From: Chloroflexota bacterium
Lineage (GTDB): Bacteria; Chloroflexota; Dehalococcoidia; Bin125
Assembly: GCA_028873865.1 (NCBI GenBank)
Contig: JAPPNI010000027.1
Span: 124,001-188,000, forward strand
Reading direction: 5' to 3'
Length of the DNA stretch: 64,000 nucleotides
The notes beneath the pieces were generated by a model. It saw only the letters and a list, made by a program, of their open reading frames with translations, was not told the origin of the DNA and made no database searches. This document shows, piece after piece, positions 1 through 40,318 of the stretch. The position numbers and the translations under genes were made by a program. Numbering within the stretch: position 1 is the first letter of the stretch; every line of letters starts with the position of its first letter.

Positions 1-2
1 CC

Positions 3-977
3 GAGGAGCAGTACACCATCCTGGACGGGCTCAAGCTGCTCACCGACGAGTCGTTCCGTCTGGACGTGCTGACCAGGCTGCGCGACCCCTACCTGCTCCA
101 GTGGTGGGCCAACGACTTCGGCAAGTGGCGGCGCGAGTACCGGTCCGACGCCCTCGCTCCGGTGCAGACCCGGCTCAACTACTACGCCTCCTCGACCCAC
201 GCCCGCGCGATCCTTGGTCAATCCCGTTCGACCGTCGATCTCAGGCGGACGATCCTCGAAGGCGGCGTCCTGCTGGTCTCGACCGCGCAGGGCTCGGTCG
301 GCCGCGACGTGGCCGCGCTGGTCGGGGCCTCGCTGCTCAACCTCGTCGATTCGGTGATCCGCGAACAGGAGCGGTTGCCCCAGCACGAGCGCCGCGGCGC
401 CTTGGTCGTGGTCGACGAGATGCAGACCATCCCGGGGGTCGAGTTCGAGTCGATGCTCTCAGAGCTGGGCAAGTACGGCGCTTCGTTCGTGCTCGCCACC
501 CAGAGCCTGGCCAAGCTGGACCAGCTCTCGCCCACGATGCGCCACACGCTGCTGGCCAACGTCGGCTGCCTGGCGGTCTTCCAGGTCGCCGGCGACGATG
601 CCCGCGAACTGGTCTGGGAGTTCAACCGTGAGCGGGTCTCGGAGGAGGACATCGTCTCCCAGCCCGTGCACCACTGCTACGTGAGGGCCACGGTTGGGAC
701 CGAGCGCACGCCCGTGTTCTCGATGCGCGTGCGCAAGCCCGAGCTGGGCTCACCCGAACGGGCCGCAGAGATCCGCCGGGCCGCATCCGAGTACCTCACG
801 CCCGCGCACCGGTTGGAGGCGCAGGAGATGGAGCTGAAGCGGCAGCTCGACCTGTACCAGGACGGCGCAGATGCGCTGCGCAACGGCAAGGAACCCAGGC
901 CGCCGAAACCGGATGACTCGCCCAAGCCGAAGAGAGAGGACCGCCAGGCCAGGCGCGACGAGGACGCCGACGCATGA
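3..977 (+). CDS. VirD4/HerA-like conjugative coupling ATPase, C-terminal part
   Basis: Open at the left window edge; only the last ~324 residues are visible. It matches the C-terminal half of the complete 864-residue protein encoded at 37724-40318. Visible are the Walker B-like ALVVVDEMQTIPG segment (DNA 400-440) and the ATQSLAKL sensor-like segment typical of VirD4/HerA/TraG-type ATPases that feed DNA to a type IV secretion channel at the inner membrane. The 3' end overlaps the next gene by 4 bp (ATGA), as in the other copy. DNA 66-349 is identical to the other copy; further downstream the two diverge. Family-level call is confident; the transported substrate is inferred to be element DNA. 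Confidence 0.8.
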   Translation, partial: EEQYTILDGLKLLTDESFRLDVLTRLRDPYLLQWWANDFGKWRREYRSDALAPVQTRLNYYASSTHARAILGQSRSTVDLRRTILEGGVLLVSTAQGSVGRDVAALVGASLLNLVDSVIREQERLPQHERRGALVVVDEMQTIPGVEFESMLSELGKYGASFVLATQSLAKLDQLSPTMRHTLLANVGCLAVFQVAGDDARELVWEFNRERVSEEDIVSQPVHHCYVRATVGTERTPVFSMRVRKPELGSPERAAEIRRAASEYLTPAHRLEAQEMELKRQLDLYQDGADALRNGKEPRPPKPDDSPKPKREDRQARRDEDADA

Positions 978-2614
978 GAACGGGTGATCCGGCGGTCAGC
1001 ATCCTGAACTGGTTGAGCCGGTTGCCGCTGCTCGACCGGCTCGAACTGGCGGCGCTCTCGGGCTGGTCGCGCAGCGCCGTTTACCGCGCGGTTGCGGCGC
1101 TGGAGCGGGAGCGGTTCGTCGACCCCGTCGCCCACGCCTCCGAGCTGATCGCGCCGACCAGGCGCTACACGCTCACGGCCGCCGGTCTGCGCCGTTTGGC
1201 ACAGTCGGGGGACATCGCGGTGGATCGGCTGCTGCGTGAGCGTCCCGTCTCCGACCAGGCGCGGCGGCTGATGTTCGGCCGGATCGATGCGCTCGCCGCG
1301 CTTTACCGGCTCAGCTGCGCCGTCGCCGACATCGCCTTCCCGGTCCAGGCCCGCAGTTACCGGGCGCTGCCGTTCGACCTCTGCCTGCGGCTGGCGGACG
1401 GGCGCACGATCGCGCTCGTCCGCCTGGGCAAGATCAACGAACGCCGGTCCCTCGCCAGGCGGCTCGCCCGGCTGCGCGACGGCGCGGCGTTCGCCGCCGT
1501 GCTGCTGCTCGCGCCCGATGAGTTCAGGCTGCGCGACGCCGCTCGGCGGTTACGGACCATGCCGCAGCCCTGCTTCCTCGCCCTCGAGCGGGACGCCGTC
1601 GAGGCGGGACCCGACGCAAGGATCTGGCGCGCGCCGTCGGCTGCGGCCGTGCTCAGCCTGCGCGAGGCGCTGGGACTCGCTGGGCCTCATAACAGCTGGC
1701 CGGTCGAGCGCCCACTCTCCCGCGTCGCAGCGCCTGCTGAGAGCGGTCCCACCGGCGCCCGATCCGACTGGATGCTGCCCGCCACATTGCATCCTTCGGA
1801 GAAGCGCTGTCTCGACCTGATCGGCGACTGGCCCTGGCTGCGGCTCGATCACATCGCCGCGCTGCTCGGCGTTGGCCGCGTGCGCCTGCGCGAACTCCTG
1901 CGGCGAGCCGCCGAGTGGGGGTTGATCGTCCGCCGCGCCGTCCTCGGCCGCCCTCGCCTGGCGCTTTCGGATCGCGGTCTGGCGCTCCTCGCCCGCCGCG
2001 ACCGCGCTTCGGTCGGCGAGATGCGCAAGCGCTGGAGCGTCGAACTCACCGAGTCGTCGGCCGGGTTCGGTTGGCGCAACGTCAGGGGAACCAGGAGCCG
2101 CCAGTTGCTGCGCAATCTCGCCCACACCGAAGCCGTGCACGGATTTCTGGCAATGGTGGCCGAACAGTGTCGATCCGACGGCTGGATGCTGATGCAGCTT
2201 GACCCGCCACAGCGAGCCTCGCGGTACTTCCATTTCGACGATCGCCTGCGCTCAGTCCAGCCTGACGCGTTCGGGGTGTTGCGACGGGAGGGGTGCCACC
2301 AGCAGTTCTTCCTCGAGTGGGAACGCCGCGCGATCCGGCCCTCGACGATGGCCCGACGGCTCGCCCCCTATCTGCGCTACTACTCGTCCAAGCGGCCGCT
2401 AGAGGATCACGGAGTCCCTCCGCTCGCCCTGATCGTGTTCGACGACGCGCTCGCGGCTGATCACTTCCAGCGGGTTGCGCGCGAAGAGATGGACCACGCC
2501 GGCGTCGAGTTGCCGGTGTTCGCCTCGGACAGACGAGTCCTCACGCAGCATGGCCCTCTCGGCCGCGTCTGGACCATGCACGGCGAACGCCATGCACGTG
2601 CTGTGTTTGCCTAG
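974..2614 (+). CDS. Replic_Relax-like winged-helix protein (ICE-L copy)
   Basis: 546 residues. Residues ~8-75 read as a winged helix-turn-helix (LDRLELAALSGWSRSAVYR), and a second HTH-like region lies near 285-330 (LRLDHIAALLGVGRVRLREL). This plan resembles the replication-relaxation family (Replic_Relax, PF13814) found on conjugative elements of Gram-positive-type bacteria. The start overlaps the ATPase stop by 4 bp, giving translational coupling. The paralogue at 36090-37727 has the same position and length but is clearly more diverged than the ATPase pair. The stop is 9 bp before an IS21 element, which spared the frame. Role in DNA processing is inferred from family and context; no relaxase motif is visible. 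Confidence 0.6.
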   Translation: MRTGDPAVSILNWLSRLPLLDRLELAALSGWSRSAVYRAVAALERERFVDPVAHASELIAPTRRYTLTAAGLRRLAQSGDIAVDRLLRERPVSDQARRLMFGRIDALAALYRLSCAVADIAFPVQARSYRALPFDLCLRLADGRTIALVRLGKINERRSLARRLARLRDGAAFAAVLLLAPDEFRLRDAARRLRTMPQPCFLALERDAVEAGPDARIWRAPSAAAVLSLREALGLAGPHNSWPVERPLSRVAAPAESGPTGARSDWMLPATLHPSEKRCLDLIGDWPWLRLDHIAALLGVGRVRLRELLRRAAEWGLIVRRAVLGRPRLALSDRGLALLARRDRASVGEMRKRWSVELTESSAGFGWRNVRGTRSRQLLRNLAHTEAVHGFLAMVAEQCRSDGWMLMQLDPPQRASRYFHFDDRLRSVQPDAFGVLRREGCHQQFFLEWERRAIRPSTMARRLAPYLRYYSSKRPLEDHGVPPLALIVFDDALAADHFQRVAREEMDHAGVELPVFASDRRVLTQHGPLGRVWTMHGERHARAVFA

Positions 2615-2618
2615 TGCG

Positions 2619-2623
2619 AGTGG
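2619..2623. repeat. IS21 target-site duplication, left copy
   Basis: AGTGG immediately left of the IS terminus at 2624 is repeated at 5060-5064. IS21 elements typically duplicate 4-8 bp. Removing the element and one copy restores GTGCGAGTGGACTTCGCAC, a hairpin with 6-bp arms. Confidence 0.9.
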
Positions 2624-2710
2624 TGTTTTGATCGCTCTTGATCTAGACCAGTTGATCGGTCTAAGACTAGGCCACCTGGAGGCGGGCATAGTCTCTCCCG
2701 TTGGTGGTTG

Positions 2711-3496
2711 CTAGGCCTCACCTCCCGCCTGCTGCGGCGGCGACGCGGTTGGTGTTCGCGCGTGCCGAGTCCGGTAGGACTGACCGCGGGTGGTGAGGAT
2801 GTGGGCGTGGTGGCCGAGCCGGTCGAGCAGGGCGGTCGCCAGCTTCTCGTCGCCGAAGACCTGGGCCCACTCGGAGAACGCGAGGTTGGTGGTGACGATC
2901 GTGGAGCGCCGCTCGTAGCGGTCGGCGAGCAGGTTGAAGAGCAGTTCGCCGCCGGCCCGCTCGAAGGGCACGAAGCCGAGTTCGTCGACGATCAACAGGG
3001 CGACGCGCGAGTAGCGCTGGTGCAGGCGCGAGAGCGTGTGTTCGTCGCGGGCCTCGACCAGTTCGCGCACGAGGTCGGCGGCGCGGATGAAGGCCACGCG
3101 CTGGCGGCGCTGGACGGCTTCGACCCCGAGTGCGATCGCGAGATGCGTCTTGCCGGTGCCGATCGGCCCGGCGATCACGACGTCCTCGCCGCGCTCGAGG
3201 TAGTCGCAGGCGGCGAGTTGGGCGAGCTGCGGCCGCTCGATCCCGCGCAACGCGTCCCAGTCGAGCTGGTCGAGGGTCTTGTGGTCGGGGAAGCGCGCCC
3301 CGCGCAGCAGCCGGGCGACGGCGCCGTCGCGGCGGGCCAGGACCTCGGCTTCGAGCAGCTGCAGCAGGAACGCCTCGTAGTCCCAGCCGTCGTGCGCGGC
3401 CTGACGGACGAGCTCGGGGTACTGGCGGCGCACGGTGGGCAGCCTGAGTTCACGGCAGTGGGCCTCGAGCACGGCCCGGCGCGCGGCGTCGCTCAC
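2711..3496 (-). CDS. istB: IS21 transposition helper ATPase IstB
   Basis: 261 residues from a GTG that overlaps the istA stop (GTGA), which is the classic istA-istB coupling; the longer upstream frame would run into istA and was not used. It is an AAA+ ATPase with Walker [12 protein letters not shown], Walker [13 protein letters not shown] and sensor segment [10 protein letters not shown]. IstB oligomers load on target DNA and stimulate the IstA transposase. Length and motifs are complete, so it is probably functional. Confidence 0.95.
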
Positions 3497-4950
3497 GATG
3501 CACCTCGTTCCAGCAGACGGTCGTAGTCGGCCAGCGAGGCGCACTCAACGCGGTAGCCGCGCAGCCGTTCCGGCACGGTCACCTCGCCCGGCGCCTGGGC
3601 TGCGGCCAAAGAACGCCGGATCGCCAACTCGTCGAAGCCGCCTTCGGCGAGACCGGCCTCCAGCGCCACCCGCACCCGCTCCTCGCCGTGTTCGGCGGCC
3701 GCCTGCAGGAGCCGCGCCAGGGCGCGGGCCGCCTCGTGACCGCCGCGTTCCTCCTCCAGCAGCGTCCACAGCCGGTCATAGGGCCCGCCCAGTTCGTCGA
3801 TCAGCTCCGGCGCCACCTGGCGCAGGGCCTGCGGCTTGCGCGAGAGCTCGCCCAGGTAGTGGCGGTAGCGCACCCGCCGGCCGCCGAAGCGCTGGCGCGG
3901 ATGGCTGACCTGCTCCGCGCCGCGCTCGAAGGCGACCTCGGAGACGCCGACCCAGGCGGTCACCCTGAGGCCCGCCCAGCGCTCCGGGACCGAGTACCAG
4001 GCTCCCTCCAGCCGGACCATGGCGCTGCGGTTGACCGAGACCGGCTGCATCCGCCGCGGCTCGAACGCGACTGCCGGCAGCGGACGCAGCAGCGGCCCCT
4101 CCGTGGCGAAGCGCGCCCAAACCTGCTCGGGCGCCAGCCGGTCGACCTCGGCTTGCATCTCCGCGGAGATCTGTTCCAGCGAGTCGCCGCGCGGCAGCGG
4201 TGTCAGCACCTGCCAGCGCACGCCCCGGCCGCGGCCCTCGACGCCGCCCTTGTCGTGACCCTCGCCGGGACGGGCGAAGCTGGGCTCGAAGGCGTAGTGA
4301 CTGGCCAGCGCGGCGAAGCGCTGGGTCAGCTGGCGGCGCGGGAACTGCACCCGGCGCACGGCCGCCGAGAGGTTGTCGTAGACCATCCGCCGGGGCACGC
4401 CGCCGAAGTGTTCGAGGGCGCGCACGTGCCCATCGAGGAAGGCGAGCTGGTCCTGGCGTTCATAGAGCCGGACGTAGTCGCGGCCCGAATGCATCAGCCG
4501 GAAGACGAGCAGCCAGACCGGTCGCCGCTCGCCGGCCAGGTCGACCCAGACCTCGAAGAAGTCGACCTGGGCGCTCTCGGCCGGGCGGTGGACCAGCGGC
4601 ACGTAGACCTCGGCCCGCCGCCGGCGCCACTCGCGCAGCTCGGCCAGGACCAGGGTCAGGCCGACCTCGTAACCCTCCTCGCGCAGCTGGCGGTGCAGCC
4701 GGCGTCCCGTGATCCGCTGCTTGGCCGTGGTCCGGTGCGACCACTCCTCCAGCAGCTGCTCCAGCCGCGGCCGGACCCGGTCCAGGACCGGGCTGGCGCG
4801 TTGCCGCTCTTGCCGCTCGGGCACCGGCGTCGCCAGGTAACGGCGCACCGTGTCCCGCGCCAGCCCCATCTCGCGGGCCACCATGCGTTGACTCTGGCCC
4901 TCGACCAGCACCTTGCGCCGCAGCGCATAGATATCCATCACTCCGAGCAT
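3493..4950 (-). CDS. istA: IS21 transposase IstA
   Basis: 485 residues. The N-terminus has an HTH (residues ~18-40, [20 protein letters not shown]), followed by an rve-type DDE core. The acidic triad is visible as the D of [10 protein letters not shown], the D of VYDNLSAAV and the E of [14 protein letters not shown]. It binds the IS ends and catalyses cut-and-paste/circle transposition with IstB. The frame is intact and of usual IS21 length. An ATG three codons in (MDIYALRRK) is an alternative start. Confidence 0.95.
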
Positions 4951-5059
4951 CCCTCTCTCCCAACCGGCGTCGGCTCACGCCGATCACAGGTTGGAGCTTG
5001 GCCCCCAAGTGGCCGAGTTTTAGAGCGATCACTGGACGACTTTTAGAGCGATCAATACA

Positions 5060-5064
5060 AGTGG
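5060..5064. repeat. IS21 target-site duplication, right copy
   Basis: AGTGG directly after the right IS terminus, identical to 2619-2623. Confidence 0.9.
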
Positions 5065-11967: not shown

Positions 11968-13686
11968 ATGAATGACGACCTGAATCACACCCCCGCCGCC
12001 CTCTATGCTCGCGTCTCCTCGGACCGGCAGGATGTCGACCTCTCCGTCGCTGCACAGCTCAGAGCGCTGCGCGACTACGCCGAGCGCAACGGCTACATCG
12101 TCGCCCGCGAGTACATCGACGAAGCCGAGTCAGGACGTGTCGCCGACCGACCGCAGTTCACGAAGATGCTGGACGAGGCCGCGCAGCCGGATGCGCCGTT
12201 CCAGGAGATCCTGGTCTGGAAGTTCTCCCGCTTCACGCGCAAGCGCGAACACGCCGTCGCCTTCAAGTCGATGCTGCGCCGGCGCGGGATCCGGGTCACT
12301 TCGATCACCGAGCACGCCGACGACACTCCGACCGGCAAACTGATGGAGGCGATCATCGAGTCGGTCGACGAGTTCTATTCCGAGAACCTCGCCCAGGAGG
12401 TCACGCGCGGCATGCGCGAAGCCGCCTCAAGAGGCTTTTGGGTGGCCAGCCGGCCGCCCTACGGGTACAAGCGGGTCAAGGTCCAGGACGGCGGCAAGGA
12501 GCGTCCCACGCTGGTGCTCAACCCGCCCGTCGATGAGGTCGTGCGGCGCATCTTCGAGATGGCCTCCTCAGGCCAGAGCGTGCTCGACATCACCCGCACG
12601 CTCAACTCAGAAGGCATCCCCACCACCACCGGCAAGCCCTGGCTCAAGACGACCGTGCACCGGCTGCTGACCAACGAGGCCTACACCGGCACGCTGGTCT
12701 GGGGCCACAACGCCAAGGACGGTTCCGAGCCGGTGCGGGTCGAGGACGCCTTCCCGGCGATCGTCACGCGCGACGAGTTCCAGTACGTGCAGCGGCTGCT
12801 CAAGTCGCGGGCGCCCAGGAAAGCGAACCCGCGGCGCGTCTCCAGCCCCTACCTGCTCTCGGGCCTGGTCGGCTGCGAGCCCTGCGGCGTGAGCATGTCG
12901 GCGGCCGAAGCCAAGGGCGGCCGCTACAGCTACTACGTCTGCCAGTCGAAGATCAAGAAGGGCTCCGAGACCTGCCCAACGCCCAGGCTCAACGCGCGCG
13001 ACTTCGAGCGCACGATCATCGAGCAGCTGCGCGGCCACATCCTGACCGAGCGCAACATCCGCGAACTGGTCAAGATGGTCGATGAGGAGCTGGACGGTCT
13101 GGCCCATGAGCAGCGGCGCAAGCTGGAGACGGTCGAGCACGAGCTGGGTGAAGTCAACCGGGCGCTCGACCGCATCTGGCGGCTGGTCGAGACCACCGAC
13201 CTGGAGATGGCCGACGCCGCCGACCGCATCCGCGAGCACAAGCAGCGCAAGCAACAGCTTGAACAGGCGGTGGATGAGTCGAGGCGGATGCTGGCCGAGC
13301 GGCGCGAGCTGCTCGACTCGGCCGAGCTGGTCGCCGCGTTCGCCGCGGAGATGGGCGAGTTCCTCGCGACCAGCGAGCTGACCGAGACCCGCGCCTTCCT
13401 GCGCACGTTCATCCAGGGCATCGAGGTGAGGCCCGGCCGGGCCCTGATCCGCTACACGATCCCGATGCCCGAGGACAGCCCGATCGGACGCTCAGACCGC
13501 GCCGAAGTGGGGTTGGAGCGCGGAGTTCGCAAATCGGTACGTGTTGGTGGAGCCGAGGGGATTCGAACCCCTGACCTCTGCCGTGCAAGGGCAGCGCTCT
13601 CCCAACTGAGCTACGGCCCCGGAGACCTCAGCCTAGCGCCATTGGGCGCGAATCCGGCTAGCGCGACGGGCTCGAATCCCGACTGA
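11968..13686 (+). CDS. Large serine recombinase (ICE-L integrase); C-terminus runs through tRNA-Ala
   Basis: 572 residues from an ATG preceded by GAGGAG. The N-terminal resolvase domain has ALYARVSSDRQ with the nucleophilic Ser, EYIDEAESGR and KFSRFTR. It is followed by a recombinase domain (~150-250), a zinc ribbon (C-x2-C GCEPCG, later CQ...C), a coiled coil (~380-450) and the IRYTIPMP motif also found in the second recombinase. After that motif the frame enters the tRNA-Ala gene in antisense (giving EGIRTPDLCRARAALSQLSYGP) and the end of cobU. The tail beyond ~13490 therefore probably reflects integration-site sequence rather than a conserved domain. The enzyme is expected to integrate and excise ICE-L. 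Confidence 0.88.
   Translation: MNDDLNHTPAALYARVSSDRQDVDLSVAAQLRALRDYAERNGYIVAREYIDEAESGRVADRPQFTKMLDEAAQPDAPFQEILVWKFSRFTRKREHAVAFKSMLRRRGIRVTSITEHADDTPTGKLMEAIIESVDEFYSENLAQEVTRGMREAASRGFWVASRPPYGYKRVKVQDGGKERPTLVLNPPVDEVVRRIFEMASSGQSVLDITRTLNSEGIPTTTGKPWLKTTVHRLLTNEAYTGTLVWGHNAKDGSEPVRVEDAFPAIVTRDEFQYVQRLLKSRAPRKANPRRVSSPYLLSGLVGCEPCGVSMSAAEAKGGRYSYYVCQSKIKKGSETCPTPRLNARDFERTIIEQLRGHILTERNIRELVKMVDEELDGLAHEQRRKLETVEHELGEVNRALDRIWRLVETTDLEMADAADRIREHKQRKQQLEQAVDESRRMLAERRELLDSAELVAAFAAEMGEFLATSELTETRAFLRTFIQGIEVRPGRALIRYTIPMPEDSPIGRSDRAEVGLERGVRKSVRVGGAEGIRTPDLCRARAALSQLSYGPGDLSLAPLGANPASATGSNPD
13545..13620 (-). tRNA. tRNA-Ala (anticodon UGC)
   Basis: 76 nt including an encoded CCA. The acceptor stem pairs GGGGCCG with CGGCTCC, then A and CCA; the D-arm is TAGCTCAGTTGGGAGAGC, the anticodon loop CTTGCAC gives UGC, and the T-arm is GGGGTTCGAATCCCC. 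All arms pair, so the gene looks functional. Its 3' end faces the ICE-L recombinase, the usual geometry for integration at a tRNA 3' end. It follows cobU by 37 bp on the same strand; a TAGGCT -10-like box about 10 bp upstream could give it its own promoter. Confidence 0.97.
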
Positions 13687-14203
13687 GCGCCTTCAGATTC
13701 AGCGGCAGACCCGCCGCCACGAACCAGACCTCATCCGCCGCCGAGGCCACCAGCTGGTTCACCCGCCCCAGCCGGTCCGCATAGTCCCGCCCCAGCTGGG
13801 TCATCGGAACAATCCCCAACCCCACCTCATTCGAAACCAGGATCCACGAAGCCTCCTGAGCCCGATAAAGCTCTAGCAACCGCCCCGCCTCAGACAGCAC
13901 ATCCCGCTCCCCCTCCGCATGCATCAGGTTGCTCACCCAAAGCGTCAAGCAATCGAGCAGCACCGTGTCATACTCCCCCACGACCGGCCGCAGGACCTCA
14001 ACCAGGTCAAGCGGCTCCTCCAGGGTGTCCCAACCAGCCGGCCGGTCGGACTGATGCCGACGAATCCGAGCCGCCATATCCGCATCACCCGCCTCCGCCG
14101 TCGCCACAAACAACACCCGCGCACCCCGCTCCGCCAACTGCTGCGCATACGTGCTCTTGCCCGCCCGCCGACCGCCAAGGATCAAAGTCAACGACTTGCT
14201 CAC
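13658..14203 (-). CDS. cobU: Adenosylcobinamide kinase / adenosylcobinamide-phosphate guanylyltransferase
   Basis: 181 residues starting with GTG 3 bp after cobC. P-loop GGRRAGKS (residues 10-17), then the CobU signature RIRRHQSDRPAGWDT and NEVGLGIVP. It phosphorylates adenosylcobinamide and transfers GMP to give AdoCbi-GDP in nucleotide-loop assembly. It is the last protein gene of the B12 operon. Its final ~29 bp overlap, in antisense, the tail of the ICE-L recombinase frame. Length is normal. Confidence 0.95.
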   Translation of the reverse strand: MSKSLTLILGGRRAGKSTYAQQLAERGARVLFVATAEAGDADMAARIRRHQSDRPAGWDTLEEPLDLVEVLRPVVGEYDTVLLDCLTLWVSNLMHAEGERDVLSEAGRLLELYRAQEASWILVSNEVGLGIVPMTQLGRDYADRLGRVNQLVASAADEVWFVAAGLPLNLKALSRDSSPSR

Positions 14204-14206
14204 GCG

Positions 14207-14866
14207 CTACCCACCCTCTTCCATCGCCAGATGACCGGTCTCATTCCAGGACTCCAGCACGGCCCCATCATCAAACGTTCTGACCATCGACAGTCCGGAG
14301 GGACGAAGCCTGAACCGCAAAAGAGACTCGGTCGGCAGATCCAGCAAACAGACCAGCAGAGCCGTCAACGACCCGCCATGCCCAACCACCAGCACCTGCT
14401 CCCCCGAACCATGCCGCGCCCGCACCGAGTCATGAAAGCGCCGCACACGATCAACCACCTCACCGACGCGCTCACCGCCCGGCGGCGAGTATCGCTCGTC
14501 CCGACGCACCACGCGCTCGGCGAATCCCGCCGGATCACGAGCCTCCACCTCGGCAAACGTCAGCCCTTCCCACTCGCCATAGGCAACCTCGCGCAACTCC
14601 GGGACGGCAACGACCTCCGGCCCCGACTCGCCAACCACCAGCCGCGCCGTCTCCATACAGCGCGTCAGGTCGCTGGCGTAAACCGCCGAGAAGCTCACGC
14701 CGGCAAGCCGCTGTCCCAACGACGACGCCTGAACCTCTCCCTGCCGGCTGAGCGGCACGTCCGACTGCCCCTGGATCCGGCCCTCCCGGTTCCAGTCCGT
14801 CTCGCCGTGCCTAACTAGATACCAGGCACTCCCCGCATCCCCCGGGTAGACCCGTTGGTCACTCAT
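14207..14866 (-). CDS. cobC: Histidine phosphatase, probable alpha-ribazole phosphatase
   Basis: 219 residues from the ATG at 14866, which has a clear AGGAG site; the longer frame upstream overlaps cobS and was rejected. Phosphoglycerate-mutase-like fold with catalytic RHGE (LVRHGETDWN), the second-His segment VVGHGG and the GEWEG loop. In this operon it most likely removes the 5' phosphate of alpha-ribazole or adenosylcobalamin phosphate. The family also contains unrelated phosphatases, so the substrate rests on context. Confidence 0.88.
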   Translation of the reverse strand: MSDQRVYPGDAGSAWYLVRHGETDWNREGRIQGQSDVPLSRQGEVQASSLGQRLAGVSFSAVYASDLTRCMETARLVVGESGPEVVAVPELREVAYGEWEGLTFAEVEARDPAGFAERVVRRDERYSPPGGERVGEVVDRVRRFHDSVRARHGSGEQVLVVGHGGSLTALLVCLLDLPTESLLRFRLRPSGLSMVRTFDDGAVLESWNETGHLAMEEGG

Positions 14867-14876
14867 TCGAGCACTC

Positions 14877-15635
14877 CTACCAGAACGGCGAGTCGAACAG
14901 CTCGGGCAACACCGGCGCGAGCGCAAGACCGATCATCAACACCGACACCTCGCCCATCTCGTTCACCGCGCCATACGCGTCCCCAGTCATCCCACCCAGT
15001 TTGCCGGTCATCCACCAACCCAGGCCAAGCGCCACCGTCGTCGCCACGCCAAACAGGATCAGCCCGCCCGGGCCAAGGAACAGCCCCGCCGCCAGCGCCG
15101 CTGTCACGAGACCGGCGCCAACTTGCCACCAGCGTCCGCCCTCCAGGAACGCCGTGCCCAGCCCCTGTGCTCGCGCATACGGGAAGACCGACATCGTCGC
15201 CAGCATGCCAAACCGCGACAGGCAGGGAAACACCAGCAACAACCCGACGCGCCCCTCATCTGGCAAGCTGGCCAGCAAGCTCCACTTGGTCACGATCAGC
15301 GCCGCGCCACCGACCACCGCGAACGCGCCGACGTGCGTATCGCGCAGGATGCGCAGCCGGTCCTCCGGCGTATAGCCGCCAAAGAGACCGTCGCAGCAGT
15401 CGAGGAATCCTTCCGTGTGCAATGCGCGAGTCAGGATCAGGAGCGCGGCGATCAACAGAGCGCCGACCACGATCGCCGGCAACCCTTCGCGAGCCGCCGC
15501 ATCGAGTCCGACGAGGCACGCGCCCAACACGAGTCCGACCAGAGGAAACCAGGCCCGATCGGCGCCGGTCGGCGCGCGATTGGCGGACATCGGCAGAATC
15601 GTGAGGAAGCCAATCGCCGCGCGCGGGTCGCTCAC
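14877..15635 (-). CDS. cobS: Adenosylcobinamide-GDP ribazoletransferase (cobalamin synthase)
   Basis: 252 residues, polytopic membrane protein. It carries the family motifs FLTILPM near the N-terminus and HTEGFLDCCDGLFGG, the metal-binding region, plus GMTGDAYGAVNE near the C-terminus. It joins AdoCbi-GDP to alpha-ribazole (phosphate) at the membrane. It overlaps cobT by 4 bp and precedes cobC by 10 bp, so it is translationally coupled. Confidence 0.95.
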   Translation of the reverse strand: MSDPRAAIGFLTILPMSANRAPTGADRAWFPLVGLVLGACLVGLDAAAREGLPAIVVGALLIAALLILTRALHTEGFLDCCDGLFGGYTPEDRLRILRDTHVGAFAVVGGAALIVTKWSLLASLPDEGRVGLLLVFPCLSRFGMLATMSVFPYARAQGLGTAFLEGGRWWQVGAGLVTAALAAGLFLGPGGLILFGVATTVALGLGWWMTGKLGGMTGDAYGAVNEMGEVSVLMIGLALAPVLPELFDSPFW

Positions 15636-16693
15636 GGCGACGCGCCCTGGTCCGACACGCCGGCCTCCGCGAACGTGGCCATCTCATTCAGACAGGCCGC
15701 CGCCGCGTCGACGATGCCCATCGCCAGCACCGCACCCGTGCCTTCGCCCAGCCGCATGTCGAGGTCGAGCAGCGGCTCGAGGCCCAGGTGTTCAAGCGCG
15801 ATGCCATGACCGAGCTCCGCCGAGCGGTGACCGGCGATCAGATAGTCCCGGCTCAGCGGCACAATCGCCTGTGCGATCAACGCCGCCGCAGCCGTGATGA
15901 ACCCATCCAGGATGACCGGTGTCCGACGCGAGGCTGCGCCCAGCACGACGCCGGCCAGGACGCCGATCTCGAAGCCGCCCAGCGTGCGCAGCACGTCCAT
16001 CCCATCTGTCGGGTCGGGCTCGTTGACGCCGATTGCCCGCTTCACCACATCAACCTTCCTAGCGAGCTGCTCGTCGCTGCGAGACGCGCCCCGACCCGTC
16101 ACCGCTTCCGGCGGACGCCCGCACAGCACCGAAACGATCGCGGCGGCCGAGGTCGTGTTGCCGATCCCCATCTCTCCGATACCGATGATGTCGTCGTAGG
16201 CCGCCGCAGCGCGGGCAATCTTGGCGCCCGTGTCGAGCGAGACTTCGGCCTGCTCCAGGGTCATCGCCGGACCTTCGGCAATGTTCTCCGTCCCGAATCC
16301 GAGGCGCACCGAAACCAGGGCGTCCGACGGACCCACCGGCACGGCGACTCCCGCGTCGACGATGGTCAGATCAACGCCGGCTCGTTCGGCGAGCGCGTTG
16401 ACGGCCGCCCCGCCTTCCAGGAAGTTCTGCACCATCTGAGCGGTGACCTCCTGGGGATAACTGCTCACGCCGCTCGCCGCGACGCCGTGGTCCCCGGCCG
16501 CGAGGATGAGCTGCTTGCGGTAGCCGCGCGGACGCTCATCGCCCTGCATGCCGGCCAGCAGGATCGAGAGTTCCTCCAGCCGTCCCAGGCTGCCGGGCGG
16601 TTTCGTCAGTTGCTGCTGGCGCCGTTCCGCCGCCGCCATCGCTTCGCGGTCGAGTGGTTCGATAATCCGGAGGATGTCGTCGAGCATGATCAT
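15632..16693 (-). CDS. cobT: Nicotinate-nucleotide:dimethylbenzimidazole phosphoribosyltransferase
   Basis: 353 residues, normal length. Signatures include LTKPPGSLGRLE, LAAGDHGVAASGVS with YPQEVTAQMV, and EMGIGNTTSAAA. The general-base Glu region near the C-terminus (LGEGTGAVLAM) is present. It activates the lower-ligand base to alpha-ribazole phosphate for CobS. It lies 18 bp downstream of cobO in the same operon. Confidence 0.95.
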   Translation of the reverse strand: MIMLDDILRIIEPLDREAMAAAERRQQQLTKPPGSLGRLEELSILLAGMQGDERPRGYRKQLILAAGDHGVAASGVSSYPQEVTAQMVQNFLEGGAAVNALAERAGVDLTIVDAGVAVPVGPSDALVSVRLGFGTENIAEGPAMTLEQAEVSLDTGAKIARAAAAYDDIIGIGEMGIGNTTSAAAIVSVLCGRPPEAVTGRGASRSDEQLARKVDVVKRAIGVNEPDPTDGMDVLRTLGGFEIGVLAGVVLGAASRRTPVILDGFITAAAALIAQAIVPLSRDYLIAGHRSAELGHGIALEHLGLEPLLDLDMRLGEGTGAVLAMGIVDAAAACLNEMATFAEAGVSDQGASP

Positions 16694-16711
16694 CTGAACG
16701 GCCCGTGCTCT

Positions 16712-17293
16712 CTAGAACTCGATGCCCGGCTGCGCCTTGATCCCCTGCTCTTCATAGGGATGCTTGATCAGCTTCATCTCGGTGACCAAGTCTGCGAAAT
16801 CGATCAGCTCCTGCGGTGCATAGCGACCCGTAATGATCACGTGCATCGACTCCGGCCGCCGCTTCAGCGTCTCGATCACATCCTCAACCGGAATCCACCC
16901 ATAGTGCATCGCATAGGTGAACTCGTCCAGCACGATGATGTCTTCATCCCCGCGCAGGATCGCCTCTCGGCAGCGCTCCCACTGCTCCACGGCCAGCGCC
17001 GTCGTCTCATCCATGTCCTTGGACAGCCAGGTGAAACCGTCTCCCAACGACTCGATCTCCAGCCCGATCTTCTTCGCCGCCCGATGCTCGCCGAACCTGG
17101 CCGTCGAGTGCTTGATGAACTGGAACATGCGCACATTGAAGTCGCGCCCCCAGGCGCGGAACAGAACACCCAGCGCGGCCGTCGTCTTGCCCTTGCCGTC
17201 GCCCGTGTTGACGATCACCAGTCCGTGTCGCCGCCGCGGGCCGACATTCCCGGGAGCTGTCGGGCGTTCGCTAGGGTCGTTAGCGGGCGGCAC
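16712..17293 (-). CDS. cobO: Cob(I)alamin adenosyltransferase, CobA/CobO/BtuR type
   Basis: About 193 residues from a GTG at 17293, which overlaps the btuD stop by 14 bp and gives the family's usual length; the longer frame to 17395 lies inside btuD. P-loop NTGDGKGKTTAALG near residue 27, Walker B-like IIVLDEFTYAMHYG and the ITGRYAPQELIDFADLVTEM signature. It adenosylates corrinoids using ATP. No in-frame ATG is available, so the exact start is a judgement. Confidence 0.92.
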   Translation of the reverse strand: MPPANDPSERPTAPGNVGPRRRHGLVIVNTGDGKGKTTAALGVLFRAWGRDFNVRMFQFIKHSTARFGEHRAAKKIGLEIESLGDGFTWLSKDMDETTALAVEQWERCREAILRGDEDIIVLDEFTYAMHYGWIPVEDVIETLKRRPESMHVIITGRYAPQELIDFADLVTEMKLIKHPYEEQGIKAQPGIEF

Positions 17294-18182
17294 TGGTCGC
17301 CTCGCTACTCCGTACTGAACCAGACGGGCTGGACAGAACCGGTACCGGCTGGTCGGGAATCTCCGCCTCAGCCGCTGTGTCCCCCGCAGGACCAATCAGG
17401 CTGATCGCCAGCGCTCCTGTGACCGGCTCCCGATAGATTGCGGACTTCACTCCGAATGCCGACTCGATCATCTCGGGCGTCAGCACGTCATTTGGTGAGC
17501 CGTCTGCCGCGACGCGGCCCTCGGAGAGCAGGACCAGCCGGTCGCAGTAGCGCGCCGCCAGGTTGAGGTCGTGAATGGCGGCGATTGCCGTCAAACCGTC
17601 ATCGACCAGTTGGCGGACCAACGTCAGAATCTTCAGTTGGTGCAAGACGTCGAGGTTCGAGGTCGGCTCGTCCAGCAGTAACACCTGTGGCTGCTGAGCC
17701 ACAGCGCGGGCCAGGAAGACGCGCTGGCGCTCCCCGCCCGACAGGGTCTCAATCGTCCGAGTGGTGAAATCGTCGGTCTCGGTCAGCCGCATCGCATCTC
17801 GCGCGATCCGGTCGTCGTCCTGGCCTTCCACCTGGAATCGCCCCAGATGCGGATAACGCCCCATCAGAACCAGCTCGAAGGCCGTGAAGCCCTGCGTGTA
17901 CGGAGCGATCTGTGGCACCAGCGCCAGCAGCTCGGCGACCTCTCTCGCAGCGAGGGATTTCAGATCAGCGCCCAGAACCGAGACCGAGCCTTCCTGATAG
18001 TTCAGTACGTTCGAGATCGCCCGGAGCAAGGTCGACTTGCCCGCGCCATTCGGTCCGATCAGGCCGACGAACTGGCCTCGCTCGGCGCTCACATCGACGC
18101 GGTCAAGCAGTGTCGCTGCCTCGACGCTGAAGCTCAGCGACCGGGCGTCGACGGCTGGCAGCCGGCCATTGCGCTCATTCAC
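17280..18182 (-). CDS. btuD: Cobalamin/corrinoid ABC transporter ATPase
   Basis: 300 residues. Walker A GPNGAGKST, Q-loop PQIAPYT, signature LSGGERQR, Walker B VLLLDEPTSNLD and switch His AAIHDLN are all present. It is a FecE/BtuD-type ATPase that powers BtuC. A C-terminal extension of ~45 residues (rich in Pro, Ser, Ala) follows the core. Corrinoid specificity is inferred from the riboswitch and the cob genes. No btuF-type binding protein is present in the window. Confidence 0.92.
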   Translation of the reverse strand: MNERNGRLPAVDARSLSFSVEAATLLDRVDVSAERGQFVGLIGPNGAGKSTLLRAISNVLNYQEGSVSVLGADLKSLAAREVAELLALVPQIAPYTQGFTAFELVLMGRYPHLGRFQVEGQDDDRIARDAMRLTETDDFTTRTIETLSGGERQRVFLARAVAQQPQVLLLDEPTSNLDVLHQLKILTLVRQLVDDGLTAIAAIHDLNLAARYCDRLVLLSEGRVAADGSPNDVLTPEMIESAFGVKSAIYREPVTGALAISLIGPAGDTAAEAEIPDQPVPVLSSPSGSVRSSEATSAAR

Positions 18183-18206
18183 TGATGACTCCCCTCAGTG
18201 GCCCGC

Positions 18207-19241
18207 TCACAGCGAGTAGACTTGTCGTTTGTTCTTGATCAGCAACAGAATGAAGAACGGCGCGCCGACAAACGCTGTCAGGATCCCGACCCGGAATTCG
18301 GCTGGTTGGATGACCGTTCTGGCCACGGTGTCGGCGAGGATCACAAACGCCGCCCCGCCCAGCGCGCTCATCGGGATCAGGACACGGTTGTCCGGCCCCA
18401 GGATCAGCCGCAGGGTGTGCGGCACCACGAGCCCAACGAATGCGATCGTGCCGCTCACCGCGACCGCCGCGCCGGTCGCCAGCGAGGCGGCCAGCAACAT
18501 CGTCACCCGCGTCAGACCGACCCGGACGCCCATCGACCGCGCCTCGTCGTCGCCCAGCATCAGCAGATTCAGATCACGTGCGAGCAACAGCAGGACCGCG
18601 GCGCTGCCAAGGATCAACGGTCCGGCGATCCGAACGTGTTCCCACGAGCGGGAGTCGAGACCACCCGCGAGCCAGAACAGGATCTCTCGCAGGGCTTCGT
18701 TGTCCGGCAGGACAATGATGATCGCCGACACGATCGCCCCGAGAAACGCATTCACGGCCACACCCGCGAGCAGCAGCGTCGCCATCGAGAAATGTCCGCC
18801 CACCACCGCGATCCCGTAGACCAGCAGCGCCGCGCCCAGCGCGCCCACAAAGGCAAACACCGGCAACGCCAGGAAAAACAGGCCGGCCAAGCCGGCGGCG
18901 ATCGCGACGACCGCGCCCAGCGCGCCGCCGGCCGAGACACCGATGATCCCCGGGTCGGCCATCGGGTTTCGGAACAGACCCTGCATCGTCGCACCGGCCA
19001 CGCCCAGCGCCATCCCCACCGCCGCGCCGACCACGATCCGCGGTAGCCGGATCTGGTCAATCACCAGCTGCTCGGTCCGCCCGAATTCCGGAACATCGAT
19101 GCCGATCGCGGACAAGGCAATCCAGGCGACGTGACTGATCGGGATATCGACCGGACCGAGGCTCAGAGAGATCAGGCCGACCACCACGACGAGCAACAAC
19201 AGGATCGACATGCCAAGCACCAGGCGCGTCGTCACGCCCAT
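18207..19241 (-). CDS. btuC: Cobalamin/corrinoid ABC transporter permease (FecCD family)
   Basis: 344 residues from the ATG at 19241. The frame could be read up to 19379, but that would pass through the terminator hairpin and into the riboswitch, so the downstream ATG is chosen. Multiple membrane helices with FecCD motifs: LPRIVVGAAVGMALGVAGATMQGLFRNPMADPGIIG (key residues only the LPR and RNP turns) and GxxxPHxxR as GLVVPHTLR. First gene of the riboswitch-controlled operon; forms the import channel with BtuD. Confidence 0.92.
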   Translation of the reverse strand: MGVTTRLVLGMSILLLLVVVVGLISLSLGPVDIPISHVAWIALSAIGIDVPEFGRTEQLVIDQIRLPRIVVGAAVGMALGVAGATMQGLFRNPMADPGIIGVSAGGALGAVVAIAAGLAGLFFLALPVFAFVGALGAALLVYGIAVVGGHFSMATLLLAGVAVNAFLGAIVSAIIIVLPDNEALREILFWLAGGLDSRSWEHVRIAGPLILGSAAVLLLLARDLNLLMLGDDEARSMGVRVGLTRVTMLLAASLATGAAVAVSGTIAFVGLVVPHTLRLILGPDNRVLIPMSALGGAAFVILADTVARTVIQPAEFRVGILTAFVGAPFFILLLIKNKRQVYSL

Positions 19242-19282
19242 CTGCCGGTAGCCACGCAGTGACTGGATGCCCGCGACCAAAG

Positions 19283-19309
19283 AAAAACCTCCAGCGGCTC
19301 CGCTGGAGG
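19283..19309 (-). terminator. Rho-independent terminator of the riboswitch leader
   Basis: A 10-bp perfectly complementary stem (CCTCCAGCGG with CCGCTGGAGG) is followed on the minus strand by TTTTTCTTT. It lies between the riboswitch and btuC, 42 bp before the btuC start. This is the expected expression platform: ligand binding would favour termination. Confidence 0.88.
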
Positions 19310-19383
19310 GATGGTGTACGACCTGGCCGGATTTGACGCCCGGAGATCGGTGGACCTCTCTGAAGCGGAGAGTTGTCACCTCT

Positions 19384-19581
19384 CGTCCAGGCAGGTCTCC
19401 TGGCTCGCGGGTGGATGCTGCGCTGGACCCTTCCCATCGACCTCACGTCGGTCGACAGTGGGTGTCAGCTCTCCGTTCTGCCCCGACCGCATCGACTGCT
19501 GGTACGGGCCCCGCTTACAGTGGCGCTACCGCGTCGGAATCTCACCGACTTCCCTATTCTCCCGGGACGGGCACCTGGACG
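19384..19581 (-). ncRNA. Cobalamin riboswitch
   Basis: Read on the minus strand: the P1 arms CGTCCAGG and CCTGGACG enclose the element. The conserved GGTGCCC start, GGGAAGTCGGTGAGATTCC core, GCCACTGTAA box and AGCCAGGAGACCTGCC B12 box (19390-19405) are all present in order. It precedes btuC and a terminator, so it senses adenosylcobalamin to shut off import and salvage genes. Confidence 0.96.
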
Positions 19582-19596
19582 AAGTTTGCTGCACGA

Positions 19597-19626: not shown

Positions 19627-21258
19627 GCGACGCGCCGCCAGAATCGGTGCGCCAGAAAGCTGCACTGAGTGGGTAAGGGATACCGGCGGTGATGGTGGGC
19701 CGGACTGGACGAAATCGAGAACTGATTCCCGGTCCTGGGTTGCGCCATCGGAGGGCATGGGGATGGTGTACCGGATCGATACTTCATCCCCGTCGATCTT
19801 GACCCCCTGGACGAAGTTGCGGATCAGCGCCTTGCGCTCCGGGATGGTCCCGGTCTGGAGGAACTCGCGGAAGTCGGCGACGTAGCGCTTGATCTCGGGC
19901 GTTGAAGGTAGGTCGGCGCGGCGCTGCTCCAGCTGGCGGACGGCGTCGTCGCGGGCCGCTGCCAGCTGATCCTCCTGCTGGCGCAGCTTGAGGATGCGCG
20001 GCGAGAGCGCATCATAGGTCAGCTCGCTGTTCTCAATGGCGTCGTAGAGCTTCTCCAGGCGGCGGCGGACATCGTCCAAGTCCGACTCGATGATCGCCAG
20101 GTCCGAGGCCCGCTCCTGGGCCAGCGCGTCGACCTCCTCGGCCACCAGCTGGACCAGTTCCGTGATCGTCTCCTCGTTGAGGATGCGCTGCATGATCTTG
20201 GCGACGACCTGGTCCTCCATCCTTCCGGCGTTGAGGTAGCGTCCGTCACAGGCGCCTGCGCCCTCGCGCAGAAGCTTGTTGCAGACGTAGTAGGCGAACT
20301 GACCGCTCTTGGCGCTTTGCCCGGTGTACGGCTTACCGCAGACGCCGCAGCGCAAGAGACCCGAGAGCAGGAACTTGCTGCCCACGCGGGCCGGCGCCTG
20401 GATCTTCGGCGCCCGGGCTCGGAGCCCCGCCTGCACCGCGTCGTACAACTCCCGCGAGACGATGGCGGGCCAGGCGTCGGCGACTCGCACCGGGTCGGGA
20501 GTCTGTCCATCCCTAGCCGTCTTGCCCCAGACCGCGGTGCCGGTGTAGGCCTCGTTGGTGAGCACGTAGTGCAGCATGTTCTTCTGCCAGCGCTTGCCGC
20601 CCTTCGTGATTCCGCGCTCGTGCAGGTCCTGGCAGATCTCCTTGAGCCCCTGACCCCGGGCCGAGCGCTCGAACATCTCCTTGACGATCGGCACGGTCGC
20701 CGGGTCGATCTCCAGCGTGGGACGCTCCTTGCCGCCGTCCTGCACCTTGACCCGCGTGTATCCGTAGGGCGCGCGCGAGCCGAGGAAGAACCCGCGCGAG
20801 GCGGCCTCGCGCATCCCGCGCGTGACCTCCTGAGCCAGGTTCTCCGAGTAGAACTCGTCGACCGACTCGATGATCGCCTCCATCAGCTTGCCGGTCGGAG
20901 TGTCGTCGGCGTGCTCGGTGATCGAGGTGACGCGGATGCCGCGCCGCCTGAGCATCGACTTGAACGCGACGGCGTGCTCGCGTTTCCTCGTGAAGCGGGA
21001 GAACTTCCAGACCAGGATCTCCTGGAAGGGGGCGTTTGGACCGGAGGCCTCGTCCAGCATTTTGCGGAACTGAGGCCGGTCGGCCACTCTGCCGCTCTCG
21101 GCCTCGTCGATGTACTCGCGGGCAACGACGAAGCCGTTGCGCTCGGCGAAGTCACGCAGCGCGCGCAGTTGTGCGGCCACCGAGAGGTCGACATCCTGGC
21201 GGTCGCTGGAGACACGGGCGTACAGAGCGGCTGGGACGCGGTCGGGCTGGTGTTTCAT
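19600..21258 (-). CDS. Large serine recombinase (ICE-R integrase)
   Basis: 552 residues from the ATG at 21258, preceded by CAGGAGCGGCACC; the longer frame to 21294 lacks this site. Resolvase domain with ALYARVSSDRQ, EYIDEAESGR and KFSRFTR, recombinase domain, zinc ribbon (RCGVCG and later CNK...C) and coiled coil. Its first ~150 residues are nearly identical to the ICE-L recombinase, whereas the DNA-recognition half differs strongly. After IRYTIPMP the last 50 residues have no counterpart and run through the apparent promoter of the B12 operon, so this tail is probably target-site sequence. Expected to integrate ICE-R next to the riboswitch. Confidence 0.88.
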   Translation of the reverse strand: MKHQPDRVPAALYARVSSDRQDVDLSVAAQLRALRDFAERNGFVVAREYIDEAESGRVADRPQFRKMLDEASGPNAPFQEILVWKFSRFTRKREHAVAFKSMLRRRGIRVTSITEHADDTPTGKLMEAIIESVDEFYSENLAQEVTRGMREAASRGFFLGSRAPYGYTRVKVQDGGKERPTLEIDPATVPIVKEMFERSARGQGLKEICQDLHERGITKGGKRWQKNMLHYVLTNEAYTGTAVWGKTARDGQTPDPVRVADAWPAIVSRELYDAVQAGLRARAPKIQAPARVGSKFLLSGLLRCGVCGKPYTGQSAKSGQFAYYVCNKLLREGAGACDGRYLNAGRMEDQVVAKIMQRILNEETITELVQLVAEEVDALAQERASDLAIIESDLDDVRRRLEKLYDAIENSELTYDALSPRILKLRQQEDQLAAARDDAVRQLEQRRADLPSTPEIKRYVADFREFLQTGTIPERKALIRNFVQGVKIDGDEVSIRYTIPMPSDGATQDRESVLDFVQSGPPSPPVSLTHSVQLSGAPILAARRLFAVGWRC

Positions 21259-37727: not shown

Positions 37728-40318
37728 TGGTCGGCTCCGTCCTGCTCGGCCGGCGTGGACTCACCGGGGTGCTGCCGCTCCCGCGTCTTCGGCTCGGGCC
37801 GGACGGCCTTGGGCTTTTGCTTCTTCTTCTGTTGCTGCTGTGCCGTTCTGTCCGCTTTGTGCCGGGCTTCCATCTGCTCGCGGAACTCGGTCACCGACCG
37901 CTGGCGCTCGGCCTGCTGCCGCTCCAGCTCCGGCGCCGGAGTGACGTAGGCTGAGGCCGCCTCGCGGATGCGTGCGGCTCGCAAGGGGTCGCCCGGTTCG
38001 GGCTTGCGCACCGTCATCGAAAAGACCGGCATCCGCTGGGTGCCGACCGTGGCCCGCACGTAGCAGTGATGCACGGGTTGGGAGACGATGTCTTCTTCGG
38101 AGACCCGCTCGCGGCCCAGCTCCCAGAGCAGGTCGCGCGCGTCCTCGCCGGAGACCTGGAAGACGCAGAGGCAGCCGACGTTGGCCATCAGCGTGTGACG
38201 CATCGTGGGCGAGAGGTCCTGGAGCTTGGCCAGGCTCTGGGTGGCGAGCACGAACGAGGCGCCGTACTTGCCCAGCTCGGAGAGCATCGACTCGAACTCG
38301 ACCCCGGGGATCGTCTGCATCTCGTCGACCACGACCAGTGCGCCCCGGCGCTCGCCCTGCGGCAAGCGCTCTTGCTCGCGGATGACAGAGTCGACGAGGT
38401 TGAGCAGCGAGGCCCCGACCAGCGCGGCCACGTCGCGGCCGACCGAGCCCTGCGCGGTCGAGACCAGCAGGACGCCGCCTTCGAGGATCGTCCGCCTGAG
38501 ATCGACGGTCGAACGGGATTGACCAAGGATCGCGCGGGCGTGGGTCGAGGAGGCGTAGTAGTTGAGCCGGGTCTGCACCGGAGCGAGGGCGTCGGACCGG
38601 TACTCGCGCCGCCACTTGCCGAAGTCGTTGGCCCACCACTGGAGCAGGTAGGGGTCGCGCAGCCTGGTCAGCACCTCGGAGCGGAACGACTCGTCGGTCA
38701 GCAGCTTGAGTCCGTCCAGGATGGTGTACTGCTCCTCGGGCTTGGTCGCGGGATGGCTGTTGGCCTCGTGCAGGGTCTTGACCGTCTGCTCGAGGATCGA
38801 CTGCATCCGCGGACCCCACTGCTCCCACAGGCCGCGCGCGACGCGTACGACCGCGTCGGCGGTCCGGTCGCGGTCGGTGAACACATGGGCGTCGAGCAGG
38901 TTGACGCCGACCGCGCCGCGCTCGTCGGCCAGGTCGATCAAGCGCACTTCGGAGACCAGCTGCTCCGGCACCAGCTCGAGGATGTCTGCGACCAGGTCGG
39001 CGTGCGGGTCGATCACGACGATGGCGTCGCGGTCGCGGCCCTCGGCCTTCTCCTGGAGCTTGTGCTCGACCAGGTGGCGCATCAGGGTCGACTTGCCCAT
39101 CCGGGTGCGGGCCACGTAGAGGTGGTGGCGGCCAAGCAGGTCGTCGGGGAAGTGGACCGGTTCGCGGTCGGCCTCGCTGGTCGTCCCGACCTCGGCCCCG
39201 CCGGCCAGTTCGCCGACCGCAGGCGGCAGCGCCCGGGCGCCGGCGCGGGCCACGAGCGGCGATTCGTCCGCCGCCGAGGGCGGATGCCAGAGCGCCGCCG
39301 CCTCGCGCACGCCCAGGACGCTGCGCCGGCGGAACATGCCCGGAGGACGGGGATGCAGGCGCGGCGGCCCAGGTTCGAGCGGCCCGACCTTGCCCGACTC
39401 GAACTGCGCCCCGGAAGGATGGTCGTAGTGGCGGTAGGCCGCGGCCAGCCGCTCCAGCAGCTCCTCGGCCCGCTCTTCCTGCGAGCCCTCCGGCAGCACC
39501 GCGACCAGCTCCAGCTCGGCCTCGAACGCGCCGCGCGAGATCTTCTCCTTGACCAGCTGCGGATCGAAGTAGCAGTCGCGCGACTTCTTCCACTTGCGCC
39601 AGGCCCAGCCGCCGCCGATCAGGAGGACGGCCGCCCCGGCGCAGAGCGCGGCCAGGTTCCAGATCTCGCCGGCTTGCAGCCATGTATAGCCCTGGTAGAA
39701 CCCGAAACCAGCCGGGATAAGCACGGCCAACGCCAACGGATCAGGTCCGGACGACACCGGTTGGCCAGGGGCCGGCCTGGGTTGGCTCTGGATCTGCACC
39801 GGCTGTGCCTTCTCCTGGTAGTGGCGCGACCACTGGGGGCCGAGCGAGCGCAACAGCAGGCGCGAGACCAGCCGCTCGCCTTCCTTGAGCCCGGTGAGCG
39901 CGCCCAGAGGCGCGAGCAAGGGGTCTGAGCCGGGGTCGACCAGGTCCTGGTCGCGGAACACGCGTAGGGGCGCGTACTCGGGGCCCGAGGCGCGCAGCAC
40001 CAGCGACCAGGCCTGCTCATCCTCGTCCAGGCGCATGTAATCGCGCTCAGAGGGCACGTCGCGGATGCGGGCCTGCGGGTAGTGGACGCCGACCTGTCCG
40101 CGCACGATCTGGTCGCCCGCGCAGCGGACGAAGAGGCCGATCGAGCGCTCGTCGGCCGCCAGCTCCAGCGCGAACGGTTCCGGCGCCGCGATCGAGCCGA
40201 GCAGGTTCTCGACGCCCAGCAGCGTGCGCTGTCCGGTGCGCGGCGGCGTGACCGCCAGCAGCGCCGGCCCTGGCGGGCTGGCAGCGCGCCTGAACCATCG
40301 GAGTGGGTTGAACTTCAT
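37724..40318 (-). CDS. VirD4/HerA-like conjugative coupling ATPase, complete copy
   Basis: 864 residues, AAAGGA site upstream. Two membrane segments at ~197-240, Walker A ARTRMGKST (403-411), Walker B AIVVIDPHADLV, a second acidic segment ALVVVDEMQTIPG and ATQSLAKL. The N-terminal ~190 residues are a soluble domain; the C-terminus is a Gln/Lys-rich tail. It would connect the DNA-processing complex to the secretion channel at the inner membrane. The segment 38391-38674 is identical to 66-349 of the ICE-L copy. Confidence 0.82.
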   Translation of the reverse strand: MKFNPLRWFRRAASPPGPALLAVTPPRTGQRTLLGVENLLGSIAAPEPFALELAADERSIGLFVRCAGDQIVRGQVGVHYPQARIRDVPSERDYMRLDEDEQAWSLVLRASGPEYAPLRVFRDQDLVDPGSDPLLAPLGALTGLKEGERLVSRLLLRSLGPQWSRHYQEKAQPVQIQSQPRPAPGQPVSSGPDPLALAVLIPAGFGFYQGYTWLQAGEIWNLAALCAGAAVLLIGGGWAWRKWKKSRDCYFDPQLVKEKISRGAFEAELELVAVLPEGSQEERAEELLERLAAAYRHYDHPSGAQFESGKVGPLEPGPPRLHPRPPGMFRRRSVLGVREAAALWHPPSAADESPLVARAGARALPPAVGELAGGAEVGTTSEADREPVHFPDDLLGRHHLYVARTRMGKSTLMRHLVEHKLQEKAEGRDRDAIVVIDPHADLVADILELVPEQLVSEVRLIDLADERGAVGVNLLDAHVFTDRDRTADAVVRVARGLWEQWGPRMQSILEQTVKTLHEANSHPATKPEEQYTILDGLKLLTDESFRSEVLTRLRDPYLLQWWANDFGKWRREYRSDALAPVQTRLNYYASSTHARAILGQSRSTVDLRRTILEGGVLLVSTAQGSVGRDVAALVGASLLNLVDSVIREQERLPQGERRGALVVVDEMQTIPGVEFESMLSELGKYGASFVLATQSLAKLQDLSPTMRHTLMANVGCLCVFQVSGEDARDLLWELGRERVSEEDIVSQPVHHCYVRATVGTQRMPVFSMTVRKPEPGDPLRAARIREAASAYVTPAPELERQQAERQRSVTEFREQMEARHKADRTAQQQQKKKQKPKAVRPEPKTRERQHPGESTPAEQDGADQ

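Follow-up and report, generated by a model that had tools for sequence, protein, structure and literature searches.

Two coupling-protein genes of a bacterium from the Dehalococcoidia (Chloroflexota) share a stretch of 284 identical nucleotides, in inverted orientation and about 38 kb apart. We consider it likely (with a probability of about 83%) that this identity arose by recent gene conversion, without crossover, between the coupling genes of two integrated elements (A and B), and that the converted tract lies inside an older exchange. By its sequence, the gene of element B (gene B) is a mosaic, in which about 0.8-0.9 kb was replaced by sequence from the lineage of gene A and of a third copy in the genome (gene C). 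The window that we analyzed is a stretch of 64,000 nucleotides from a draft genome (G000; 2.8 Mb in 41 contigs, around 95% complete), and the relatives that we name are mostly metagenome-assembled genomes from Chloroflexota/Dehalococcoidia. Positions refer to the window unless a contig is given (the window lies on contig C41).

The inverted tract and the genes that contain it

66..349, + strand: 284-bp tract, copy in gene A (residues 549-643), an exact match to the reverse complement of 38391-38674
38391..38674, - strand: 284-bp tract, copy in gene B (residues 549-643)
-1578..977 (G000:C41:122422-124977; the 3' part is at 1..977), + strand: gene A, TrwB/VirD4-like coupling protein, 851 aa
37724..40318, - strand: gene B, TrwB/VirD4-like coupling protein, 864 aa, mosaic
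G000:C5:139-2694: gene C, third copy in the same genome, 94% identical to the tract
974..2614, + strand: partner of gene A, Replic_Relax-like (PF13814, MobC relaxase family), 546 aa
36090..37727, - strand: partner of gene B, Replic_Relax-like, 545 aa
40369..43023, - strand: VirB4/TraG-like ATPase of element B; no other was found in the genome
45351..46322, - strand: TrbL-like conjugal transfer protein, just under the Pfam cut-off

In a base-by-base comparison of the two loci, 66-349 equals the reverse complement of 38391-38674 at 284 of 284 bases, and neither end can be extended by one base, so the perfect inverted repeat that was claimed in the first-pass annotation is exact. The tract is the core of a longer inverted match, between 1-749 and 38739-37991, that is 91.9% identical; if the part of gene A to the left of the window is included, the match covers about 1.57 kb at 86% identity. 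The same annotation described the sequence on both sides as clearly different. This holds for the outer parts of genes A and B (about 37% different) and for the neighboring genes, but not for the immediate flanks of the tract, which differ by only about 8-14%.

Both genes are TrwB/VirD4-like, in keeping with their earlier description as coupling ATPases: the coupling proteins match PF10412 and PF12696 over the cut-off in a profile search. An AlphaFold2 model of the gene B product (built from 35 family members; mean pLDDT of 81) has a membrane hairpin (residues 194-247), Walker A (404-411), an all-helical block (483-612), and Walker B (near 661-667), which places the hairpin, the Walker A/B motor, and the all-alpha domain in the order of TrwB. 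The best match to this model among solved structures, using Foldseek, was TrwB of R388 (1e9s; E ~1e-14), with a TM-score of about 0.67 (by target length). Given this predicted fold, genes A, B, and C encode coupling proteins of the VirD4/TrwB type, and a role in coupling the relaxosome to a type IV secretion system (T4SS) is putative.

Directly downstream of each coupling gene is a gene with a match to PF13814, which is listed as the MobC relaxase family (PMC5357655). These matches are weak and lie around the cut-off: the partner of gene C (P0006) was over it and P0004 and P0005 were just under it, while in the scan of the genome all three were slightly over. The partner of gene B is 72-75% identical to its A and C counterparts in the matching stretches (at the nucleotide level). 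A search of this ~95%-complete genome found no second VirB4 near gene A or gene C; the sole VirB4 adjoins gene B.

We also noticed several repeats around genes of the A type. Genes A and C share an identical run of 310 bp upstream of the core (in the comparison of G000:C5:139-2694 with C41:122422-124977), which is probably another conversion tract. Upstream of gene A, three related stretches of about 310-370 bp (C41:112115-112445, 117594-117921, and 121041-121410) all match one and the same stretch of the relatives L060/L061. A-type genes with 93-94% protein similarity are found in drafts that are labeled as Terriglobia, Gemmatimonadetes, and Gammaproteobacteria (L059, L067, and L135); these are either misbinned contigs or cases of cross-phylum transfer. 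Three A-type copies (L059, L067, and L113) start 431-445 bp from the end of a contig, as if at the boundary of a repeat.

Two separately integrated elements flank a B12 operon

11968..13686, + strand: large serine recombinase, right edge of element A
13548..13620, - strand: tRNA-Ala(TGC), whose 3' end is the joining site of element A (right junction ~13545)
14877..19379, - strand: B12 operon, with CobS-like (below the cut-off), CobT, corrinoid-type ABC ATPase, and BtuC/FecCD permease genes
19373..19593, - strand: cobalamin riboswitch RF00174
19600..21294, - strand: large serine recombinase (CcrB-like), left edge of element B (junction ~19693)

In four relatives (G011, G005, G009, and G014), the sequence to the left of C41:84902 joins position 13545 directly. 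Because the left site is empty in these relatives, gene A must lie inside an insertion of about 52.6 kb. This insertion has a serine recombinase and junctions at the tRNA-Ala(TGC) as well as the empty site in four relatives, as expected for an integrative element. Its cargo genes encode, among others, a UvrD/PD-(D/E)XK protein, a C5 methylase, and two Mrr-type nucleases. With its own coupling-protein and Replic_Relax genes but no T4SS channel, the gene content of element A fits an integrative mobilizable element.

The start of element B, at about 19693, corresponds to a tRNA-Ala(CGC) in G011; the matching tRNA-Ala(CGC) of our genome is on another contig (at C13:26101). For element B we found the left junction and the VirB4 and TrbL-like genes, and the right end, which is unassembled, is not on C41. 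It is probably on another contig near C13:26101. The B12 block (13620-19593) is chromosomal and lies between the elements, so the operon is indeed flanked by two elements, as had been proposed, and these were integrated separately.

Some other features of the elements are worth recording. An insertion sequence (2623-5060; rve integrase core and Mu-type C-terminal domain) lies directly behind the partner of gene A and is 87-88% identical to copies in other genomes. The N-terminal parts of the large serine recombinases form a second inverted pair (11991-12525 and 20701-21235; 84.8% identical over 538 bp), and both recombinase frames cross the junctions between element and chromosome by about 100-140 bp. 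In the frame at 30376-32022, a type I specificity domain (PF01420) occurs together with a nucleotidyltransferase domain (PF01909); the frame is part of a type I restriction locus, as is a TIR-domain gene (29589-30389).

Gene B contains a probable older import

38276..39071 at minimum (outer limits 38221-39133), - strand: imported A/C-type core of gene B, residues ~416-681, includes the all-alpha domain

Outside of this core (which corresponds to -331 to 464 in the coordinates of gene A), gene B is orthologous to L029 and L030, from which it differs by 5% and about 11%, respectively. Within the core, it differs from L029 by 15.7% and from gene A by 7.4%. Sites that are diagnostic of the two lineages switch accordingly: to the left of the core, 275 are B-type and 3 are A-type; in the core itself, 61 are A-type and 1 is B-type; and to its right, 71 are B-type and 3 are A-type. 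In trees from IQ-TREE, the core of gene B falls within the A/C clade and its flanks group with L029/L030, and AU tests rejected the alternatives for the core (p = 3.9e-5), for the core without the 284 bp (p = 4.9e-6), and for the flanks (p = 2e-16).

The import runs from Walker A, or a point just past it, to just beyond Walker B, and all of the all-helical block (residues 483-612) lies within it. In that block, the B protein differs from A at just 2 of 130 residues and from its orthologs at 25-26 of 130. Conversely, its membrane part matches that of L029 at every residue, whereas 37 of 61 residues there differ from A. Outside of the 284 bp, the core is about equally distant from A, from C, and from the A-type genes of other genomes. 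Since the older core is about 7-10% different from every A-type gene that we compared, its donor was not gene A as it is now, and the older import could have taken place in another cell, before element B arrived. Among 44 testable genes, only B (and its mirror, L029) stood out for a swap of the all-alpha domain, so recurrent adaptive shuffling of this domain is not supported.

The 284-bp identity is probably a younger layer

At 66-349, A and B are identical and C differs from both at 16 consecutive informative sites (a pattern found in 0 of 200,000 permutations), whereas in the rest of the imported core the three genes are all at about the same distance from one another. This implies that the 284 bp are a younger layer on top of the older replacement. 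Also, none of the other genes among the 61 that we compared is identical to A or B over the tract.

We ruled out chance identity in two ways. Among 1,663 pairs from different genomes with flank divergence above 0.3, the longest identical run had a median of 26 bp, a 99th percentile of 56 bp, and a maximum of 84 bp. And when the 55 differences between A and B in the surrounding 796 bp were placed at random, none of 200,000 trials gave a gap of 284.

Constraint on the nucleotides was ruled out as well: third codon positions in the tract vary freely (21% differ among A-type genes, with a median of 44% over the 61 genes), so the DNA of the tract is not under such constraint. The A, B, and C proteins are identical over its 95 residues, and the orthologs of B differ at 16 of these. 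The younger layer is therefore silent at the protein level, with no residue changed relative to C. The tract encodes part of the conserved motor and the all-alpha region, but given the 16 nucleotides at which C departs from A and B, the variable third positions, and the divergence of the orthologs of B, we see practically no chance that strong selection on DNA or protein kept it identical without exchange.

A similar case occurs in a finished chromosome, OX638292 (OX638292.1). Two of its coupling genes (L080 and L083) diverge by 14.6% overall and share an identical tract of 419 bp (gene nucleotides 1897-2315), in the same part of the gene as the 284-bp tract.

Overall, the genes show identity beyond their divergence, a tract whose history is unlike that of its flanks, and outside markers that remain parental. 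The recent gene conversion that was suggested at first is thus well supported, and it turns out to be larger and layered, with an imported core of about 0.8-0.9 kb beneath the tract.

Alternative explanations

Another account is that the exchanges happened elsewhere: element B (or A) might have arrived already recombinant, so that the present neighborhood of the elements is coincidental. The elements are mobile, A-type copies are also found in other genomes, and the core of gene B outside the 284 bp is about as far from A as it is from C and from foreign A-type genes, which indicates that the older donor was not A. On the other hand, only the copy on the same contig, and no other of the 61 genes, is identical over the 284 bp. 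Arrival in recombinant form is plausible for the older layer and unlikely for the recent one, and overall we find it doubtful.

The identity might instead be false, if the assembler or a polishing step merged two similar copies. Our genome is a draft in 41 contigs, and A-type copies are often at contig ends in other drafts. A short-read assembler could merge two copies that are ~7% different over the stretch, as the differences between A and C leave shared exact words of 21-36 bp there. However, a single contig of 221 kb spans both copies, and a tract of this kind (419 bp) is also present in the finished chromosome. Furthermore, a collapse cannot explain the older mosaic of about 0.8 kb, which is at least 7% different from every copy compared. 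Even for the 284-bp layer alone, an artefact is unlikely.

The first-pass annotation also raised the possibility that the repeat allows the ~38 kb with the B12 operon to invert. The repeats are inverted, lie 38 kb from each other, and have a length sufficient for homologous recombination. If a crossover had taken place within the tract, we would expect chimeric genes and a reversed operon. But genes A and B are each bordered on both sides by sequence of the parental type and followed by their own relaxase-like partner, and the orientation of the operon relative to its left neighbor is the same as in the four relatives with an empty site, from which we conclude that the interval is not inverted in the assembly. 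It may have flipped an even number of times, or be inverted in a rare subpopulation, so inversion stands only as a possibility. As the operon also has its own riboswitch, we consider it very unlikely that the repeat flips this interval recurrently or as a form of regulation.

A proposed history

Under gene conversion in two layers, about 0.8-0.9 kb of gene B, from around Walker A to just after Walker B, would first have been replaced by sequence of the A/C lineage. Strand invasion by RecA-type machinery of the host may have occurred at the conserved P-loop and post-Walker-B motifs, the places where A-type and B-type genes are most alike. In the younger step, a homologous exchange without crossover between A and B would have given the 284-bp identity. 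There was no match to a RecT-type recombinase in the genome, so recombination encoded by the elements is not indicated.

What might the older exchange have changed? According to reviews, it is the all-alpha domain that recognizes the cognate relaxosome (PMC7434980, PMC12624023), and there are known mobilizable elements that carry a coupling protein and a relaxase of their own (PMC11389934). The exchange gave protein B, which is of the helper type and adjoins the only VirB4, the all-alpha domain of proteins of the A/C hitchhiker type, and so may have changed which relaxosomes the channel accepts. A more specific and quite speculative idea is that the coupling protein of the helper (VirB4-bearing) element kept the parts that face the membrane and the channel and took the all-alpha domain of the hitchhikers, so that the channel would accept their relaxosomes. 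Conserved motifs at the edges of the import are also simply where homologous recombination is easiest.

Comparison with known systems

CloDF13-type mobilizable elements have their own coupling protein (MobB) and relaxase (MobC) (PMC7431656, PMC11389934). Elements A and C are similar in that a coupling protein is followed by a PF13814 gene, with no VirB4 found with them. Unlike the CloDF13 type, element A is chromosomal, is about 52.6 kb long, has a large serine recombinase and defence-type cargo, and resides in a Chloroflexota host; its match to PF13814 is weak, and its mobilization is putative.

The coupling proteins resemble TrwB/VirD4 in their fold, their Walker motifs, two predicted membrane helices, and an all-alpha block between Walker A and Walker B. 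In the fold alignment, however, they are just 16-17% identical to TrwB, and they have a long N-terminal part ahead of the membrane helices as well as an extension at the C-terminus.

As with known tandem integrated elements, related elements in one cell appear to exchange segments by homologous recombination and become mosaics. In the tandem elements, the exchanges are large and are helped by recombination genes that the elements encode, whereas here the elements are at separate sites and in inverted orientation, the tracts are short with parental flanks, and there was no match to RecT.

Our literature search turned up no directly relevant report of gene conversion in coupling proteins. More generally, there is precedent both for paralogs that undergo gene conversion and for mosaic integrative elements. 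Ectopic gene conversion between bacterial paralogs leaves a short identical tract with diverged flanks and no crossover, and the 284-bp tract shares these features. Unlike in that precedent, the genes here belong to mobile elements, of which some have a transfer channel and others do not, and the older layer comprises a whole substrate-recognition domain. Our case contributes a clean two-layer example in an uncultured member of the Dehalococcoidia, with breakpoints in conserved ATPase motifs, in which one exchange moved that entire domain between the lineages of VirB4-bearing and VirB4-less elements. If the exchange is functional, it would show how hitchhiking elements can, in a simple way, come to use the same transfer channel as their helpers. 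Overall, the mechanism is ordinary, with one interesting consequence.
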